IMG/VR virus record: IMGVR_UViG_3300035182_001644
Location: 1 to 27,292 of that record
Strand: one strand, 5' to 3'
Source: a virus
DNA: 27,292 nt
In this document: positions 2,712 through 25,895 of the stretch, piece by piece
Layout of the letters: each line of letters opens with the position of its first letter
How positions within the stretch are numbered: position 1 is the stretch's first letter
The notes under the pieces: model-generated
The model's database searches: none
Told to the model about the DNA's origin: nothing
What the model saw: only the letters and a program-made list of their open reading frames with translations
Program-made: the position numbers and the translations under genes

Positions 2712-2784
2712 GCCACCTTAGCTCAACTGGTAGAGCCCGTGTCTTAAGCGTAGGTTGCCCGTTCGAATCGGGCAGGTGGTACCA
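2712..2784 (+). tRNA. damaged tRNA, probably Lys (CTT)
   Basis: The acceptor (GCCACCT with AGGTGGT), D arm, T arm (GCCCG TTCGAAT CGGGC) and CCA are intact. The total is only 73 nt: the anticodon arm is short by about two bases on its 5' side, leaving a 3 bp stem when the loop is read GTCTTAA (anticodon CTT, U33 kept). Reading the loop as CTTAAGC would give TAA but breaks the stem. It is possibly non-functional or an unusual substrate. Confidence 0.55.
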
Positions 2785-9459: not shown

Positions 9460-9723
9460 ATGCAAATTGAAATTACTAATGAAATTGATCTGAAATTAGC
9501 TACTACAAGAGATCGTTTCTACACGACATCAAAAGATGTTCAATATGATACAAACAAAAACATTCTTATCTTACGTAAATCTGATGGAAGTTTAATCGAG
9601 TTCGGATCAGTGCATATCCAAAAGATTCTTGACAAAGAAATCTTTTTGAAAGGAATTCTTCCTAGCCCCTCAGGAACAGGACATGCCCCTCAAGTTCACT
9701 TTATAAGGATTACATTTCTATGA
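9460..9723 (+). CDS. hypothetical protein, 87 aa
   Basis: Start ATG 9460, 9 bp after AGGAGA. Between the site and the start lies a two-codon frame ATG-TAA (9454-9459), closer to the site. The protein (MQIEITNEIDLKLATTRDRF...) is strand-rich with a Gly/Pro turn near the end. The stop overlaps the next start as ATGA, so it is likely coupled to the deiminase-family enzyme. No family is recognised. Confidence 0.65.
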   Translation: MQIEITNEIDLKLATTRDRFYTTSKDVQYDTNKNILILRKSDGSLIEFGSVHIQKILDKEIFLKGILPSPSGTGHAPQVHFIRITFL

Positions 9724-10550
9724 CAAAACAAATTATCATGACATCTCCAACTAGTTTTGGGGTACAGTACGAAATCAACTTATGGATGAAGGACAACACT
9801 GGGCGTGTTGATCAAGTTAAAGCTGTGCAACAGTGGAGTGAATTACGAAACACTCTAACATCTATTGGCGCTGACGTGCTTGTTATTCCTCAACCACCAG
9901 AAAATTGCCCAGATGCTGTTTTTACTGCAAATGCTGGGTTAATCTATAAGGATAATTTTATCCCAAGTCGTTTTCATCATGACGAACGCGCTGTAGAAGA
10001 ACCTTTCTTTATCAATTGGATGATGAATTACTTCAAGGTTGAGTTTCAGCATTTTCATGGAACTCGCGAGCAAATTTCTTTTGAAGGAGCTGGTGATGCA
10101 TTGTTTGATTTAAATCAAAATCTTTGGATGGGGTTTGGTTTTAGAACAACTCTAAACTATAAGTATATGTTAGATCTATTTTTTGAGAATACAGACGTAA
10201 TTGTTCGCCCTCTTCAACTAGTTGATTCACGCTTTTATCATCTTGACACATGCTTTTGCACATTAGATACAGGGGAAGTTTTATGGTTTCCAAACGCGTT
10301 CAGCGGTCACTCGCAGTACGTGATTGAAGAAATGTTCAAGGAAAAACTTATCACTGTTTCAGAAGAAGACGCAGTTCGTTTTGCGTGCAACGCGGTATCT
10401 GTCGATGAGCATATAGTTCTTCCAGAAATTTCTTCTCATCTGCGTGAGCATTTAATATCAAGAGGTTATCAAGTGTATGAACTCAATATGAGTGAGTTCA
10501 TGAAAAGCGGTGGTGCATGTAAGTGTTTGACACTTCAGATAAATGAATAA
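9720..10550 (+). CDS. amidinotransferase / arginine-deiminase superfamily enzyme (276 aa)
   Basis: The fold family (COG1834-like; DDAH, arginine deiminase, amidinotransferases) uses a Cys nucleophile to attack a guanidinium carbon. Catalytic elements are complete: D65 in PDAVFTANAG, E122 and D126 in FEGAGD, H174 in HLDTCF, and Cys267 in SGGACKCLTL. The N-terminus (MTSPTSFGVQYEINLWM) is typical of the citrulline/dimethylarginine-hydrolase-like branch. Full length, so likely active. The substrate could be arginine, a methylated or modified arginine, or citrulline-type compounds. It is coupled to the small gene before it (ATGA). Role in infection unknown: arginine metabolism, or deimination of a host or defence protein, are possibilities. 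Confidence 0.85.
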   Translation: MTKQIIMTSPTSFGVQYEINLWMKDNTGRVDQVKAVQQWSELRNTLTSIGADVLVIPQPPENCPDAVFTANAGLIYKDNFIPSRFHHDERAVEEPFFINWMMNYFKVEFQHFHGTREQISFEGAGDALFDLNQNLWMGFGFRTTLNYKYMLDLFFENTDVIVRPLQLVDSRFYHLDTCFCTLDTGEVLWFPNAFSGHSQYVIEEMFKEKLITVSEEDAVRFACNAVSVDEHIVLPEISSHLREHLISRGYQVYELNMSEFMKSGGACKCLTLQINE

Positions 10551-10788: not shown

Positions 10789-10971
10789 ATGACACAAGAA
10801 CAAAAGGCTGCTCTTCAAGCTCTCGTAGAAGCAGGAGCTGAAGTTGCGACAGTGGCATATAATCCTAATACTGTTGTTGGAGATCCTGAGGCTACAGCAA
10901 TTGCCGCGGGTTGGAAAGAATTTCAACGTGAAGATACTGCTAATTTAGTTGAAGTAATTTACACGAGATAG
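10789..10971 (+). CDS. small acidic protein (60 aa)
   Basis: ATG 10789 sits about 8 bp after AAGGTGG, better placed than the ATG at 10783 or GTG at 10777. The sequence MTQEQKAALQALVEAGAEVA is an Ala-rich helix, followed by a mixed region (AAGWKEFQREDTANLVEVIY). Unknown function. The stop lies beside the -10 region of the tmRNA promoter. Confidence 0.65.
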   Translation: MTQEQKAALQALVEAGAEVATVAYNPNTVVGDPEATAIAAGWKEFQREDTANLVEVIYTR

Positions 10972-10986
10972 CAAATAATGTATAAT
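10958..10986 (+). promoter_or_regulatory. strong promoter of the tmRNA gene
   Basis: TTTACA at 10958-10963, exact 17 bp spacer, TATAAT at 10981-10986. Transcription would begin near 10993, just before the acceptor half of the tmRNA. Confidence 0.8.
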
Positions 10987-10992
10987 AAAAAT

Positions 10993-11340
10993 ACCGGTGC
11001 AGCAGCGGTTCTGCTGTTATTGTTGTAATTCGGAGCGACTTGAAGAATTTCGGACGCGGGTTCAAATCCCGCCAGGTCCACCAAAACTATCTTAATGTGT
11101 CTTAGGATAGTTTTGATGGGCCTGTAATGGTTTCGACGAGGTTACGGAGACGAGCATACGCAACACGTCAGGCGATCGACGTAAATGAAGCAAAACAAGT
11201 AAACGCAAACGACAGCGCTTACGCCTTGGCAGCTTGATCCTAGTTAGGATCAGCTAAAGCCGGAGTTTTTGGAGGGGTGAACTTGGCAACAGAATCAACC
11301 CTCCGCTATTTAACAAGGAAAAGAGATAAGGATTTATCAG
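10993..11340 (+). ncRNA. ssrA: circularly permuted (two-piece) tmRNA
   Basis: tmRNA frees stalled ribosomes and tags unfinished proteins. Here the 3' acceptor half comes first: it contains the classic GAATTTCGGACGCGGG run, a T arm (GCGGG TTCAAAT CCCGC) and CAGGTCC-ACCA ending at 11083. The 5' half begins at 11118 with GGGCCTG, which pairs over all seven positions with CAGGTCC (one G-U), then GGTTTCGACG. Between them 34 nt (11084-11117) form a hairpin (AAACTATC with GATAGTTT), the segment normally removed in permuted tmRNAs. The tag frame is 11205-11237: ANDSAYALAA then TGA. Downstream are a GATCCTA hairpin and a pseudoknot candidate (GGAGGG 11271-11276 with CCCTCC 11299-11304). The exact ends are estimates. 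Confidence 0.93.
11205..11237 (+). other. tmRNA tag reading frame (ANDSAYALAA, stop TGA)
   Basis: GCA is the resume codon, followed by AAC GAC AGC GCT TAC GCC TTG GCA GCT TGA. The AND start and ALAA end match bacterial degradation tags; SAY differs from the E. coli ENY. Confidence 0.9.
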
Positions 11341-11347
11341 CTTCACT

Positions 11348-12154: not shown

Positions 12155-12161
12155 TTCGTTG

Positions 12162-12167
12162 TATAAT
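12162..12167 (+). promoter_or_regulatory. -10 element (TTG TATAAT) very close to the next start
   Basis: TATAAT ends 9 bp before ATG 12177. The mRNA would begin about 3 nt before the start codon, so the transcript may be leaderless. Confidence 0.45.
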
Positions 12168-12176
12168 ATTTTTTCT

Positions 12177-12680
12177 ATGAAACATCTATTTCTTGACCTT
12201 GAAGATACTGTCATCACACCTGTGATGAATGGCTGGTTTAACACGCTGCTAATCAATGTTGACAAAATTAAGGCAGTACAAGCGCACTTTAAGCCAGACT
12301 TTGTAAACATTTTTTCATTCGCCATTTGGGATGAACAGCAGCTGCATGGGTTCAACTACGGTACTCGCCCCATGATTGAGAAGGTGTTGGGTATTCAGTT
12401 GAATCTAGTTCCCACTGTTGATGACCATATCATAAAGTGGTGCTGCTCAGAAATGAGCATAAGCCCGGATGTAGTTGACTTCAGTGAGATGTCAGCGTTT
12501 TGGGGAAAGCAAGAAGCATTCAGGCTTTCGTGCCGTCATCTGTTCAAGAACTTGTGGAAAACACAGGGTCAAGAAACGCAAGTCATGTTGCTTGATGATG
12601 TGGTGCACGATGAAAAGTTTGAGTGGCCAGATATTCACGTAAGTGGACAGATTTTCAACATTGATCAACTAACTTGTTGA
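12177..12680 (+). CDS. HAD-superfamily-like hydrolase (167 aa)
   Basis: The start is ATG 12177 (an in-frame TTG at 12159 lies before the promoter's -10). The protein opens MKHLFLDLEDTVITP, the HAD motif I position (nucleophile Asp7), but the usual Asp at +2 is Glu. Near the end VMLLDDVVHDEKF matches motif IV (paired Asp for Mg). The middle cap is short. HAD enzymes are mostly phosphatases; the substrate is unknown. The Asp-to-Glu change could lower activity. No ribosome site is seen, consistent with leaderless translation. An inverted repeat (TGATCAAC...GTTGATCA) spans the stop codon. Confidence 0.7.
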   Translation: MKHLFLDLEDTVITPVMNGWFNTLLINVDKIKAVQAHFKPDFVNIFSFAIWDEQQLHGFNYGTRPMIEKVLGIQLNLVPTVDDHIIKWCCSEMSISPDVVDFSEMSAFWGKQEAFRLSCRHLFKNLWKTQGQETQVMLLDDVVHDEKFEWPDIHVSGQIFNIDQLTC

Positions 12681-13330: not shown

Positions 13331-14356
13331 ATGAAAATATTTCAAGCATCAAAAGGATGGTTCATCAAGAAGCAAACAGAACCACAAGAACCTGTTATAC
13401 AGGATCAGCTAGAGTCTGTTAGTGAAAATATTTTTACAAATGAAGAAAATATAACAGATCCTGATGAGGGTGACAATCAAGCTGAAGCTCCACTAAATTT
13501 TTTGAACGATATTGAAGAGCTGCTCAAGCTAGAAATTGTCCCACCTATCCCAGAAGTTGAAAGTCCGCAGTTTTGTAAGATTACATTTAATCCATTTTCA
13601 ACAGAATGGATTAAACCAGATGATATGTCATTGACGTCTTCATGGCGTGAGGAAAATAAAGCGGCTGCAAAAGATCTGATAGATAGGTATGGTGATGCGC
13701 TAACGTTGTTTTTCTCAGGTACTGTTGAATCACAAGTAATGCTACTTGCTTTTGCTGATGCTGGAAAAATTCCAAGAGTGTACACTATCAACTTCCTAAA
13801 TGATCAGACTATCTCATCACAAGCTGATATTCTAGTAAAGTACTATCAAAAACATGGCTTTAAAATGCGGATTGTTGAGGTTGATGGTAACGCATTTTGG
13901 ACAAATACGGCACTAGAATATACCACCACATTAGGGATAATTAGTTCAAATGAAGTTTTAAGACGATGGGGAAGTACAAGCGCGAGTGGAGTTCCTGTTA
14001 TGGCGGGCACTTTTCCGTATCTGCAAAAATTTGGTGATAAGTGGTACATGGGAGATCATGAACAGTACTTTATCATAGACAAAATGGTTGCAGATGAAGG
14101 TATGAATGTTATATCTTCATTTGTGAAAAACACACCAGCACAGCTGTCTAGTTACATAAGTGAAGCTACGAAGTTCGCAGAAGAGAATGGTGCTGAATCC
14201 ACATTTGACGTACGTTCATTTGTTCAAGCAGCATATCCTGAATATGAGATCATTAGTCGAGAATTGTCAAATGATGAAAAAGAATTTGAGAAAGCTGCAC
14301 GACAGATTCAACCACATCGAATATCAATCTGCTGGCATGAAGTACACACGCAATAA
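13331..14356 (+). CDS. PP-loop ATPase-like protein with degenerate motif (341 aa)
   Basis: Residues 1-80 are acidic and low-complexity, likely disordered. Residues 120-345 resemble an ATP-pyrophosphatase (asparagine-synthetase/NAD-synthetase type) domain: the strand LTLFFSG is followed by TVES at 131-134, where the standard motif is SGGxDS. Thr for Gly and Glu for Asp suggest weakened or lost ATP use. Later segments include VPVMAGTFPYLQKFGDKWYMGDHEQYF. An intact-motif relative lies at 17813, so this may be a divergent or regulatory cousin. No clear ribosome site is seen upstream. It is followed closely by a late microgene. Confidence 0.65.
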   Translation: MKIFQASKGWFIKKQTEPQEPVIQDQLESVSENIFTNEENITDPDEGDNQAEAPLNFLNDIEELLKLEIVPPIPEVESPQFCKITFNPFSTEWIKPDDMSLTSSWREENKAAAKDLIDRYGDALTLFFSGTVESQVMLLAFADAGKIPRVYTINFLNDQTISSQADILVKYYQKHGFKMRIVEVDGNAFWTNTALEYTTTLGIISSNEVLRRWGSTSASGVPVMAGTFPYLQKFGDKWYMGDHEQYFIIDKMVADEGMNVISSFVKNTPAQLSSYISEATKFAEENGAESTFDVRSFVQAAYPEYEIISRELSNDEKEFEKAARQIQPHRISICWHEVHTQ

Positions 14357-14721: not shown

Positions 14722-14750
14722 TTTACAACACTGCAGAATCAGTGTATAAT
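14722..14750 (+). promoter_or_regulatory. promoter TTTACA-17-TATAAT
   Basis: TTTACA (14722-14727), 17 bp, TATAAT (14745-14750). It is probably the main promoter of the tRNA cluster beginning at 14907. Confidence 0.7.
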
Positions 14751-14906: not shown

Positions 14907-14981
14907 AGGTCCTTAGCTCAGTGGTAGAGCAGCGTCTTTACACGGCGTTGGTCGCAGGTTCGATCCCTGCAGGACCTACCA
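14907..14981 (+). tRNA. tRNA-Val (TAC)
   Basis: Acceptor AGGTCCT with AGGACCT, D arm GCTCAGTGGTAGAGC, anticodon loop TTTACAC, T arm GCAGG TTCGATC CCTGC, encoded CCA. Confidence 0.95.
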
Positions 14982-20631: not shown

Positions 20632-20871
20632 ATGCAAAATCTAAATGAACGTGTAAAGAATGTTCTTGTTGATCTAGACTATATTAAACCTGATACTGAA
20701 ATTAATGGTAATACTACCATTCAAGGTGATTTGGATCTAGATTCACTTGATTCTGTTGAATTCATTATGGCAATTGAAGATGAATTTGGTATTGAGATTG
20801 ATGATAATGATTCAGAAAAGATGAAAACACTTGGTGATGTCATTGAATATCTAAAGAAACGACTATCATAA
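20632..20871 (+). CDS. acpP: acyl carrier protein (79 aa)
   Basis: Carries acyl chains as thioesters on phosphopantetheine. The attachment site is Ser38 in D37-SLDS, and the surrounding helix (VEFIMAIEDEFGIEIDD) and end (TLGDVIEYLKKRL) match bacterial AcpP closely. Length equals that of the family (77-80 aa), so it should be functional once modified by the host phosphopantetheinyl transferase. A late promoter octamer lies 37 bp upstream, and AAGGA precedes the ATG. With the desaturase at 21648 it suggests phage control of fatty acid or acyl-modified product synthesis, though phage ACPs might also sequester host partners. Confidence 0.93.
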   Translation: MQNLNERVKNVLVDLDYIKPDTEINGNTTIQGDLDLDSLDSVEFIMAIEDEFGIEIDDNDSEKMKTLGDVIEYLKKRLS

Positions 20872-21647: not shown

Positions 21648-22466
21648 ATGAGCATTGATTTGTCACCGAAAGTGAAATATAACAAGTTGCTAGTAATCTT
21701 TTATTTGCTTAGCATAATTTTAGCAATTGTTATTTTACCTGTTCAGCAATTACTTATTTCATACGCGCTGTTCTTTTTCTGTATTACATTTGGTGTTGGC
21801 TTTGGGCTGCATCGTGTGGTGATTCACAATGCAGTAAAAGTTCCTCAAAGTGTTAAACATTTTGCCACTTTAGTAGGGGTGCTCTGCAATCAAGGTTCCC
21901 CAATCACGTGGGCAACAAGTCACTATCTTCATCACGCTAACTCAGATACGGAGAATGATCCACATTCTCCAATAGCACACGGTTTAAAGGTTTTATTTGG
22001 ATATTTTGCTACAGACGAGATCATTAAGAACAATGGAAAAACATTTGGCGCAATTCGTCATATAGCGCGTGATAAGTTTAATATGTTCCTTCATAGGAAA
22101 TATTATGCTGTGCATTTTATTTTCTACGTTGTTATGCTTGCACTATTTGGTTTTAAAGGGCTACTTGCATATGCTATTGTTCCAACTGGTCTTGGATTCA
22201 TAGCTGTCAATATGCAGAACTACTTCGCACACGGCAAAACAATAGGGTATGCGAACTTTGAAACCCATGATTATTCAAAAAATGTTCCATTTATGTTCTT
22301 TTTTACCTTTGGAGAAAACTGGCACAACAATCACCATTATAAAGCAAATTCCATAACAACGAAAGTGAAGTGGTGGGAAATTGATCCAGTATATGTTTGG
22401 TGCTGGCTGTTCAATGTTGACAACCATGCTAAGTGGAAATCCACGATTAAACAGATTGTGTCATAA
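21648..22466 (+). CDS. membrane fatty-acid desaturase, delta-9 type (272 aa)
   Basis: An integral membrane di-iron enzyme that puts a double bond into acyl chains using oxygen and reduced ferredoxin or similar. All three histidine boxes are present: H55-RVVI-H60, H92-YL-HH96 (followed by ANSDTENDPHSP), and H226-NN-HH230 in ENWHNNHH. Hydrophobic segments lie at about residues 14-54 and 153-195. Length is near the bacterial norm, slightly short. ATG 21648 with TGGAGAA upstream; a late octamer precedes. Together with the acyl carrier gene it points to remodelling of host membrane lipids or of an acyl product. Oxygen need implies an aerobic host. Confidence 0.93.
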   Translation: MSIDLSPKVKYNKLLVIFYLLSIILAIVILPVQQLLISYALFFFCITFGVGFGLHRVVIHNAVKVPQSVKHFATLVGVLCNQGSPITWATSHYLHHANSDTENDPHSPIAHGLKVLFGYFATDEIIKNNGKTFGAIRHIARDKFNMFLHRKYYAVHFIFYVVMLALFGFKGLLAYAIVPTGLGFIAVNMQNYFAHGKTIGYANFETHDYSKNVPFMFFFTFGENWHNNHHYKANSITTKVKWWEIDPVYVWCWLFNVDNHAKWKSTIKQIVS

Positions 22467-25649: not shown

Positions 25650-25895
25650 ATGCCAGAAGCAGCTCGCGTCGGTGATATTGATGATGATGACGATACCATA
25701 GTGACTGGTAGTCCAAATGTGTTCATTAATGGAAAAAATGCAGCTCGTGTCGGTGATGCAGATGATGCTGGTGATACCATAGTGACTGGTAGCCCAAATG
25801 TGTTCATTAATGGAAAAAATGCAGCTCGTGTCGGTGATGTAGATGATGCCGATGATACTATAGTAACTGGTAGCCCAAATGTGTTCATAAGTTAA
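25650..25895 (+). CDS. PAAR-repeat tail spike tip protein (81 aa)
   Basis: PAAR proteins cap the central spike of contractile tails and sharpen it (T4 gp5.4 is one). Three near-identical 27-residue units (starting at residues 4, 31, 58) read AARVGDxDDxDDTIVTGSPN followed by VFINGKN, matching the pseudo-threefold cone of PAAR. The usual metal-binding His and Cys are missing; instead each unit is Asp-rich. ATG 25650 with AGGAG upstream, 1 bp after the previous stop. Role as a tip is strongly supported by family; absence of the metal site is unusual. Confidence 0.85.
   Translation: MPEAARVGDIDDDDDTIVTGSPNVFINGKNAARVGDADDAGDTIVTGSPNVFINGKNAARVGDVDDADDTIVTGSPNVFIS
25659..25892 (+). repeat. 81-bp tandem DNA repeat within the PAAR gene
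   Basis: Units 25659-25739, 25740-25820 and 25821-25892 (last one shortened) are nearly identical in DNA, including synonymous positions, pointing to recent duplication or gene conversion. Confidence 0.85.

Follow-up and report, generated by a model that had tools for sequence, protein, structure and literature searches.

A complete, circularly permuted tmRNA gene of betaproteobacterial type predicted in a phage genome fragment

Results

A permuted tmRNA gene with an intact tag frame

The window analysed here is the whole 27,292-nt stretch of IMG/VR record IMGVR_UViG_3300035182_001644, a virus record that represents a fragment of the genome of a large phage. At positions 10991-11328, ARAGORN called a permuted tmRNA with the tag ANDSAYALAA and the resume consensus. 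The Rfam model of permuted tmRNA (RF04321 tmRNA_permuted, cut-off 47 bits) matched with 142.8 bits (E 1.9e-28), covering model positions 1-213 of 213, and the betaproteobacterial model (RF01850 beta_tmRNA, cut-off 84 bits) gave 113.5 bits (E 4e-34), the top score of the tmRNA clan. Both scores are far above chance expectation. The preliminary description, which had proposed a permuted tmRNA with this tag, is therefore upheld by both programs, and the covariance-model search that it had called for matched the permuted family over its full length.

The sequence traits expected of RF04321 are all found: the 3' part of the acceptor precedes the 5' part, with a spacer between them that is predicted to be removable; the acceptor stem has seven pairs, G3-U70 among them, and a CCA end; and the tag frame starts with alanine and ends with hydrophobic residues (AA), followed by a stop codon. 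Assignment to RF01850 follows from the clan-best score above the cut-off, with the qualification that gaps and non-standard pairs are numerous in the 3' part of the alignment and that the sequence beyond the tag fits the model poorly. When the sequence was read, the CCA (11081-11083) and GGGCCTG (from 11118) lay exactly where they had been placed before. The reported pairing of the acceptor strands over seven positions holds for all seven (11118-11124 with 11073-11079, including G3-U70), and the 34-nt hairpin reported between the halves (11084-11117) folds with 12 bp at -10.3 kcal/mol. Judged from its sequence, 10991-11328 is a complete, circularly permuted tmRNA gene of betaproteobacterial type, with its tag intact and a predicted promoter of its own (Table 1).

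This promoter, TTTACA-17-TATAAT, had been described as near-consensus and in fact agrees with 11 of the 12 consensus bases. For sites of this quality, the expectation is 0.6 on a 27-kb strand and 0.001 within 60 nt; the window has five 11/12 matches on the plus strand and zero on the minus strand. Identical hexamers with the same 17-nt spacing occur at 1877, 10958 and 14722, all on the plus strand, where they precede the gene at 1922, the tmRNA and the tRNA cluster, respectively. The tmRNA and the tRNA cluster of the window thus have a promoter sequence in common.

Table 1. Predicted parts of the permuted tmRNA locus and associated features (positions in the window).
Feature	Position	Strand	Basis or remark
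Sigma-70-type promoter TTTACA-17-TATAAT (predicted)	10958..10986	+	11/12 matches
Leader hairpin CAGCAG-CGGTT-CTGCTG, between promoter and inter-piece helix	11000..11016	+	function inferred
Acceptor piece (3' half of tRNA-like domain): inter-piece strand, T arm, acceptor 3' strand, encoded CCA	11021..11083	+	RF04321 alignment, ARAGORN
Inter-piece helix, acceptor-piece strand UGUUGU, pairs with 11160-11165	11021..11026	+	6/6 pairs in 15 sequences, compensatory changes
T arm GCGGG-TTCAAAT-CCCGC	11056..11072	+	fold and covariation
Acceptor stem 3' strand CAGGTCC	11073..11079	+	7/7 pairs with 11118-11124
Discriminator A73 and encoded CCA end	11080..11083	+	sequence
Intervening spacer, 34 nt, 12-bp hairpin then TGAT	11084..11117	+	fold; removal predicted from known two-piece tmRNAs
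Acceptor stem 5' strand GGGCCTG, start of coding piece, G3-U70 alanine identity pair	11118..11124	+	fold and covariation
Conserved TTTCGAC motif, reduced D-arm region	11131..11137	+	Rfam alignment
Inter-piece helix, coding-piece strand GCAACA	11160..11165	+	covariation
Tag frame ANDSAYALAA-stop, resume consensus upstream	11205..11237	+	ARAGORN
Hairpin TGATCCT-AGTT-AGGATCA, begins at tag stop codon	11235..11252	+	by eye; 6-bp version in computed folds
Probable downstream pseudoknot: GGAGGG 11271-11276 / CCCTCC 11299-11304; GCCGGAG 11259-11265 / CTTGGC 11282-11287	11259..11304	+	hairpin in folds; pseudoknot by eye
Gene of unknown family downstream of tmRNA, likewise in relatives L034 and L013 (59-61% identity)	12159..12680	+	sequence comparison
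Second TTTACA-17-TATAAT copy, upstream of tRNA cluster starting at 14907	14722..14750	+	sequence
tRNA with UUA anticodon (ochre-reading), possible functional partner	2712..2784	+	ARAGORN; 43.4 bits to RF00005; weak anticodon stem

Covariation of the tRNA-like domain

Pairing was analysed in 15 permuted tmRNAs, namely that of the window, those of seven cultured phages (DLP_6, Af QDWS595, XacN1, Rb1, Sm QDWS359, PHB04 and X1) and those of seven IMG/VR contigs, two of which (L011 and L014) resemble betaproteobacterial host genes. The acceptor stem, the inter-piece helix and the T arm together give 18 pairs; standard pairs were found in all 270 cells, a count biased toward pairing in that the inter-piece strands were picked by eye, with the acceptor and T-arm strands taken by fixed rules that retained the best-paired 5' strand. 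Slid-register controls were only 47-61% paired. Double-sided changes occurred at 8 pairs, as compared to a shuffled mean of 4.9, and 39 cells were compensated, as compared to a shuffled mean of 10.6 (n = 15 sequences in both cases). The acceptor stem has 7/7 pairs in every sequence, three of them compensated, and G3-U70 is invariant. The interaction energy of the pieces did not differ significantly from that of shuffled sequence (among 200 mononucleotide shuffles, 70 were as low), so that the pairing claim rests on the covariation. In an 18-row tree, 10 of the 15 inner branches are weak; so weak a tree leaves the window unplaced and cannot decide whether the phage or the bacterial genes came first.

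Genomic context and relatives

ARAGORN called 22 tRNAs in addition to the tmRNA, and the window encodes a DNA ligase and a metallophosphoesterase, both of phage families. Elsewhere in the window, 284-628 and 1922-2641 encode CxFGxxCxFG-like repeat proteins with no Pfam family, possibly beta-helix proteins; 25650-25895 encodes a PAAR-motif repeat protein (PF05488, 61 bits; compare tail spike tips); and an acyl carrier protein (20632-20871) lies near a fatty acid desaturase (21648-22466), which may be lipid-modifying genes.

Searches with the 341-aa protein (13331-14356) or the 173-aa protein (12159-12677) alone found no relatives, and the 276-aa protein (9720-10550) found only L015, whose sequence stops before the tmRNA. 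Two relatives, L013 and L034 (the latter part of a 336-kb contig), were recovered with a two-protein alignment (A2). Both carry, downstream of a permuted tmRNA, a homologue of the protein encoded at 12159-12680, with 61% (L013) and 59% (L034) identity. The order in the window is tmRNA, this gene, tRNA cluster; in L034 it is tmRNA, amber-reading tRNA, homologue, tRNA cluster. The tmRNA and this neighbour lie at differing distances, roughly 1 kb (window), 6 kb (L034) and 11 kb (L013). A leader hairpin occupies the same place in all three, with different stem sequences and, in L034 and L013, a GCAA loop. Achromobacter phage JWF, the closest cultured relative by its ligase (29%), is without a permuted tmRNA.

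The tag, whose centre (SAY) had been said to differ from common host tags, is unusual: in a collection of genomes from 84,980 species, ANDSAYALAA followed by a TAA or TGA stop is encoded once only, in an unrelated Myxococcota MAG whose own tmRNA is one-piece. The tags of the two relatives are ANDSQFAIAA and ANDSQIRVAA, so ANDS is common to all three. Plausible tags can be read in nearly all the other phage permuted tmRNA genes. Five IMG/VR contigs of 47-221 kb (L018, L019, L020, L021 and L022) have one and the same tag, ANENSYFEEFALAA, and permuted tmRNAs with equal Rfam scores.

Permuted tmRNAs in other phages

Permuted tmRNAs were searched for in phages by BLAST, followed by ARAGORN and Rfam. 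They were found in the seven cultured phages listed above and in Marzo, Mendera, the cyanophages S-CAM1 and S-SSM6a, the crAss-like cr7_1 and Tunturiibacter phage Tunturi_4. In the members of this set that infect Xanthomonas, Stenotrophomonas, Alcaligenes, Bordetella or Tunturiibacter, or are crAss-like, the gene is for the most part unannotated. Among the records inspected, the gene is annotated only in Marzo and cr7_1; the match lists add Yut2, Yut3 and Bhz51. In the two cyanophages and the crAss-like phage the gene is permuted according to Rfam and ARAGORN, yet the acceptor was missed by the automatic finder. RF04321 had no match in the one Bacteroides genome used as control.

In the genome of Tunturi_4 (L032, 1126-1473), a 115-aa protein with an RF-1 domain (PF00472, 42.7 bits) is encoded directly upstream of the permuted tmRNA. 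Peptide-release factors such as ArfB carry this domain, and Tunturi_4 thus has two ribosome-rescue-type genes side by side. In Xanthomonas phage XacN1 (L004, 3812-4225), an unannotated GOLLD RNA (RF02032, 227 bits) follows the permuted tmRNA at a distance of about 1 kb, just before tRNA genes.

The preliminary description had called a permuted tmRNA on a phage genome much rarer than the one-piece tmRNAs known in a few phages. Published studies and the phages found here do not support the view that such genes have hardly been reported. ARAGORN had detected 53 two-piece tmRNAs in 18,146 phage genomes, 50 of the 53 being marine or aquatic (PMC9004378), and a beta-class tmRNA is known in phage Marzo (PMC8928761); 79 unique phage tmRNAs of all forms have been counted (PMC11915505). 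The gene of Methylophilales phage Melnitz and related pelagimyophages (PMC9004378) resembles that of the window in being phage-encoded and permuted, with a full tag frame and near an early promoter. The Melnitz gene differs in its grouping, which is with alphaproteobacterial genes, and in its link to a glutamine riboswitch; in the window, no riboswitch was found at Rfam cut-offs. Stenotrophomonas phage Marzo and further Menderavirus phages (PMC8928761) likewise have a permuted tmRNA of beta type (Rfam 94.6 bits), adjacent to tRNAs. Marzo, however, is a T4-like myophage, its spacer has 57 nt, ARAGORN reads its tag as VAANDDSYTVRIAA and the sequence is not closely related. The two-piece tmRNA of betaproteobacteria (RF01850), as far as the work of Sharkady and Williams (2004) is presented in PMC9004378, has the same part order, a promoter directly upstream, an inter-piece helix and a spacer hairpin. 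The window differs from it by an additional leader hairpin, a different 3' domain, an acceptor end ACCA instead of ACCT, and ANDSAYALAA in place of the tags ANDERFALAA/ANDERFAIAA found in L014 and L011. Since phage-borne permuted tmRNAs have already been published (Melnitz, Marzo), the window gene is not a new kind.

tRNAs reading stop codons

A tRNA reading UAA or UAG was found in 6 of the 10 contigs examined (the window, DLP_6, Af QDWS595, XacN1, L034 and L013); none was found in Sm QDWS359, PHB04, Rb1 and X1. The scan ran as far as 320 kb in XacN1 and 60 kb in Sm QDWS359, and took in 20 kb of the L034 contig. In Af QDWS595, an ochre-reading tRNA overlaps the end of the tmRNA call, and XacN1 has two amber-reading tRNAs. 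TAA is the commonest stop codon in the window (24 of 40 listed genes), and an ochre-reading tRNA, if active, would therefore cause read-through. Suppressor tRNAs that cause read-through are known to give rise to substrates for tmRNA, according to Ueda (2002) as cited in PMC3985003 and PMC8012679. The association between tmRNA and stop-codon-reading tRNAs, counted without a background control, may be taken as a testable lead.

Discussion

As far as sequence tells, a promoter, a complete and covarying tRNA-like domain, an encoded CCA, a hairpin spacer, an inter-piece helix and a tag frame are all present at the locus. We consider it likely that the phage here has a functional, circularly permuted ssrA gene of its own, acting by a mechanism that we infer from two-piece tmRNAs. 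The two-piece tmRNA of Caulobacter is functional, with RNase P and tRNase Z as probable processors (PMC3985003). By analogy, one precursor transcript would be made, host RNase P would cleave it before G11118, and other host RNases would trim it to the CCA at 11083. The two pieces would remain paired as a two-piece tmRNA, which host AlaRS would charge via G3-U70 and which, with host SmpB, would enter ribosomes stuck at the ends of broken or read-through mRNAs. Alanine and ANDSAYALAA would be added to the unfinished protein and the ribosome freed, the LAA end directing the tagged protein to host ClpXP. The benefit would probably be that ribosomes are kept circulating during infection, a time at which host RNA is degraded and read-through may increase through suppressor-type tRNAs. 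Host SmpB is assumed on the grounds that no SmpB gene was found in 16 virus and phage records, among them the window and seven isolate phage records; the window is a 27-kb fragment, and the phage could encode SmpB elsewhere.

If the phage or an ancestor had integrated at a host ssrA, the locus might be a piece carried along as attachment site. Many temperate phages have ssrA ends, and most of 41 phage records match only about 35-48 bases near the T arm and the 3' end, a few of these matches lying at annotated att sites (H30, H39). The window gene, however, is complete, with promoter and tag, and Pfam recognised no integrase among the window proteins scanned. In two relatives, too, a permuted tmRNA precedes this neighbouring phage gene, which argues for a resident phage gene and makes an integration scar the least credible explanation, one to which we give hardly any weight. 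The same arrangement, found in relatives about 60% identical in the neighbouring protein, speaks against a betaproteobacterial ssrA recently acquired by chance and now decaying. That the beta_tmRNA model scores best in the clan would suit such a cargo, but every tested pair is intact, and 113.5 bits as compared to 298.2 and 269.2 bits for the host-like beta genes L014 and L011 indicates a gene that has diverged rather than broken. We regard this origin as quite improbable.

The RNA might also act as a decoy, binding SmpB or stalled ribosomes and blocking trans-translation by the host, a role that has been proposed for phage DS6A, whose tmRNA lacks a tag; an RNA of the DS6A kind, made up of the tRNA-like domain alone, inhibits tmRNA (PMC4131195, PMC11915505). 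The absence of an SmpB gene from the window speaks for this reading. A decoy could do without a tag, though; the window has an intact tag frame, and a plausible tag is read in nearly all the other phage genes, so that inhibition seems improbable to us. A working ssrA gene of the phage is the reading that we retain.

The shared neighbour in two relatives suggests that selection at the level of the phage maintains the tmRNA, as opposed to accidental carriage. In bacteria, permuted tmRNA is distributed over three main clades (PMC11915505); phages of Xanthomonas, Stenotrophomonas and Tunturiibacter and the crAss-like phage would thus infect hosts outside these clades. Permuted tmRNAs might circulate among large phages independently of the tmRNA form of the host, including one-piece hosts, and be kept because they clear ribosomes that have read through under the action of co-carried stop-codon-reading tRNAs. 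We put this forward as a speculative proposal that we consider unlikely; if true, phages could be a source of the permuted form in bacterial lineages. To the published cases the present analysis adds evidence of compensatory changes, a neighbour gene common to two relatives, a recurring promoter and more unannotated genes. The cultured phages with a permuted tmRNA are systems in which ribosome rescue by phages, and its possible link to stop-codon suppression, may be tested.
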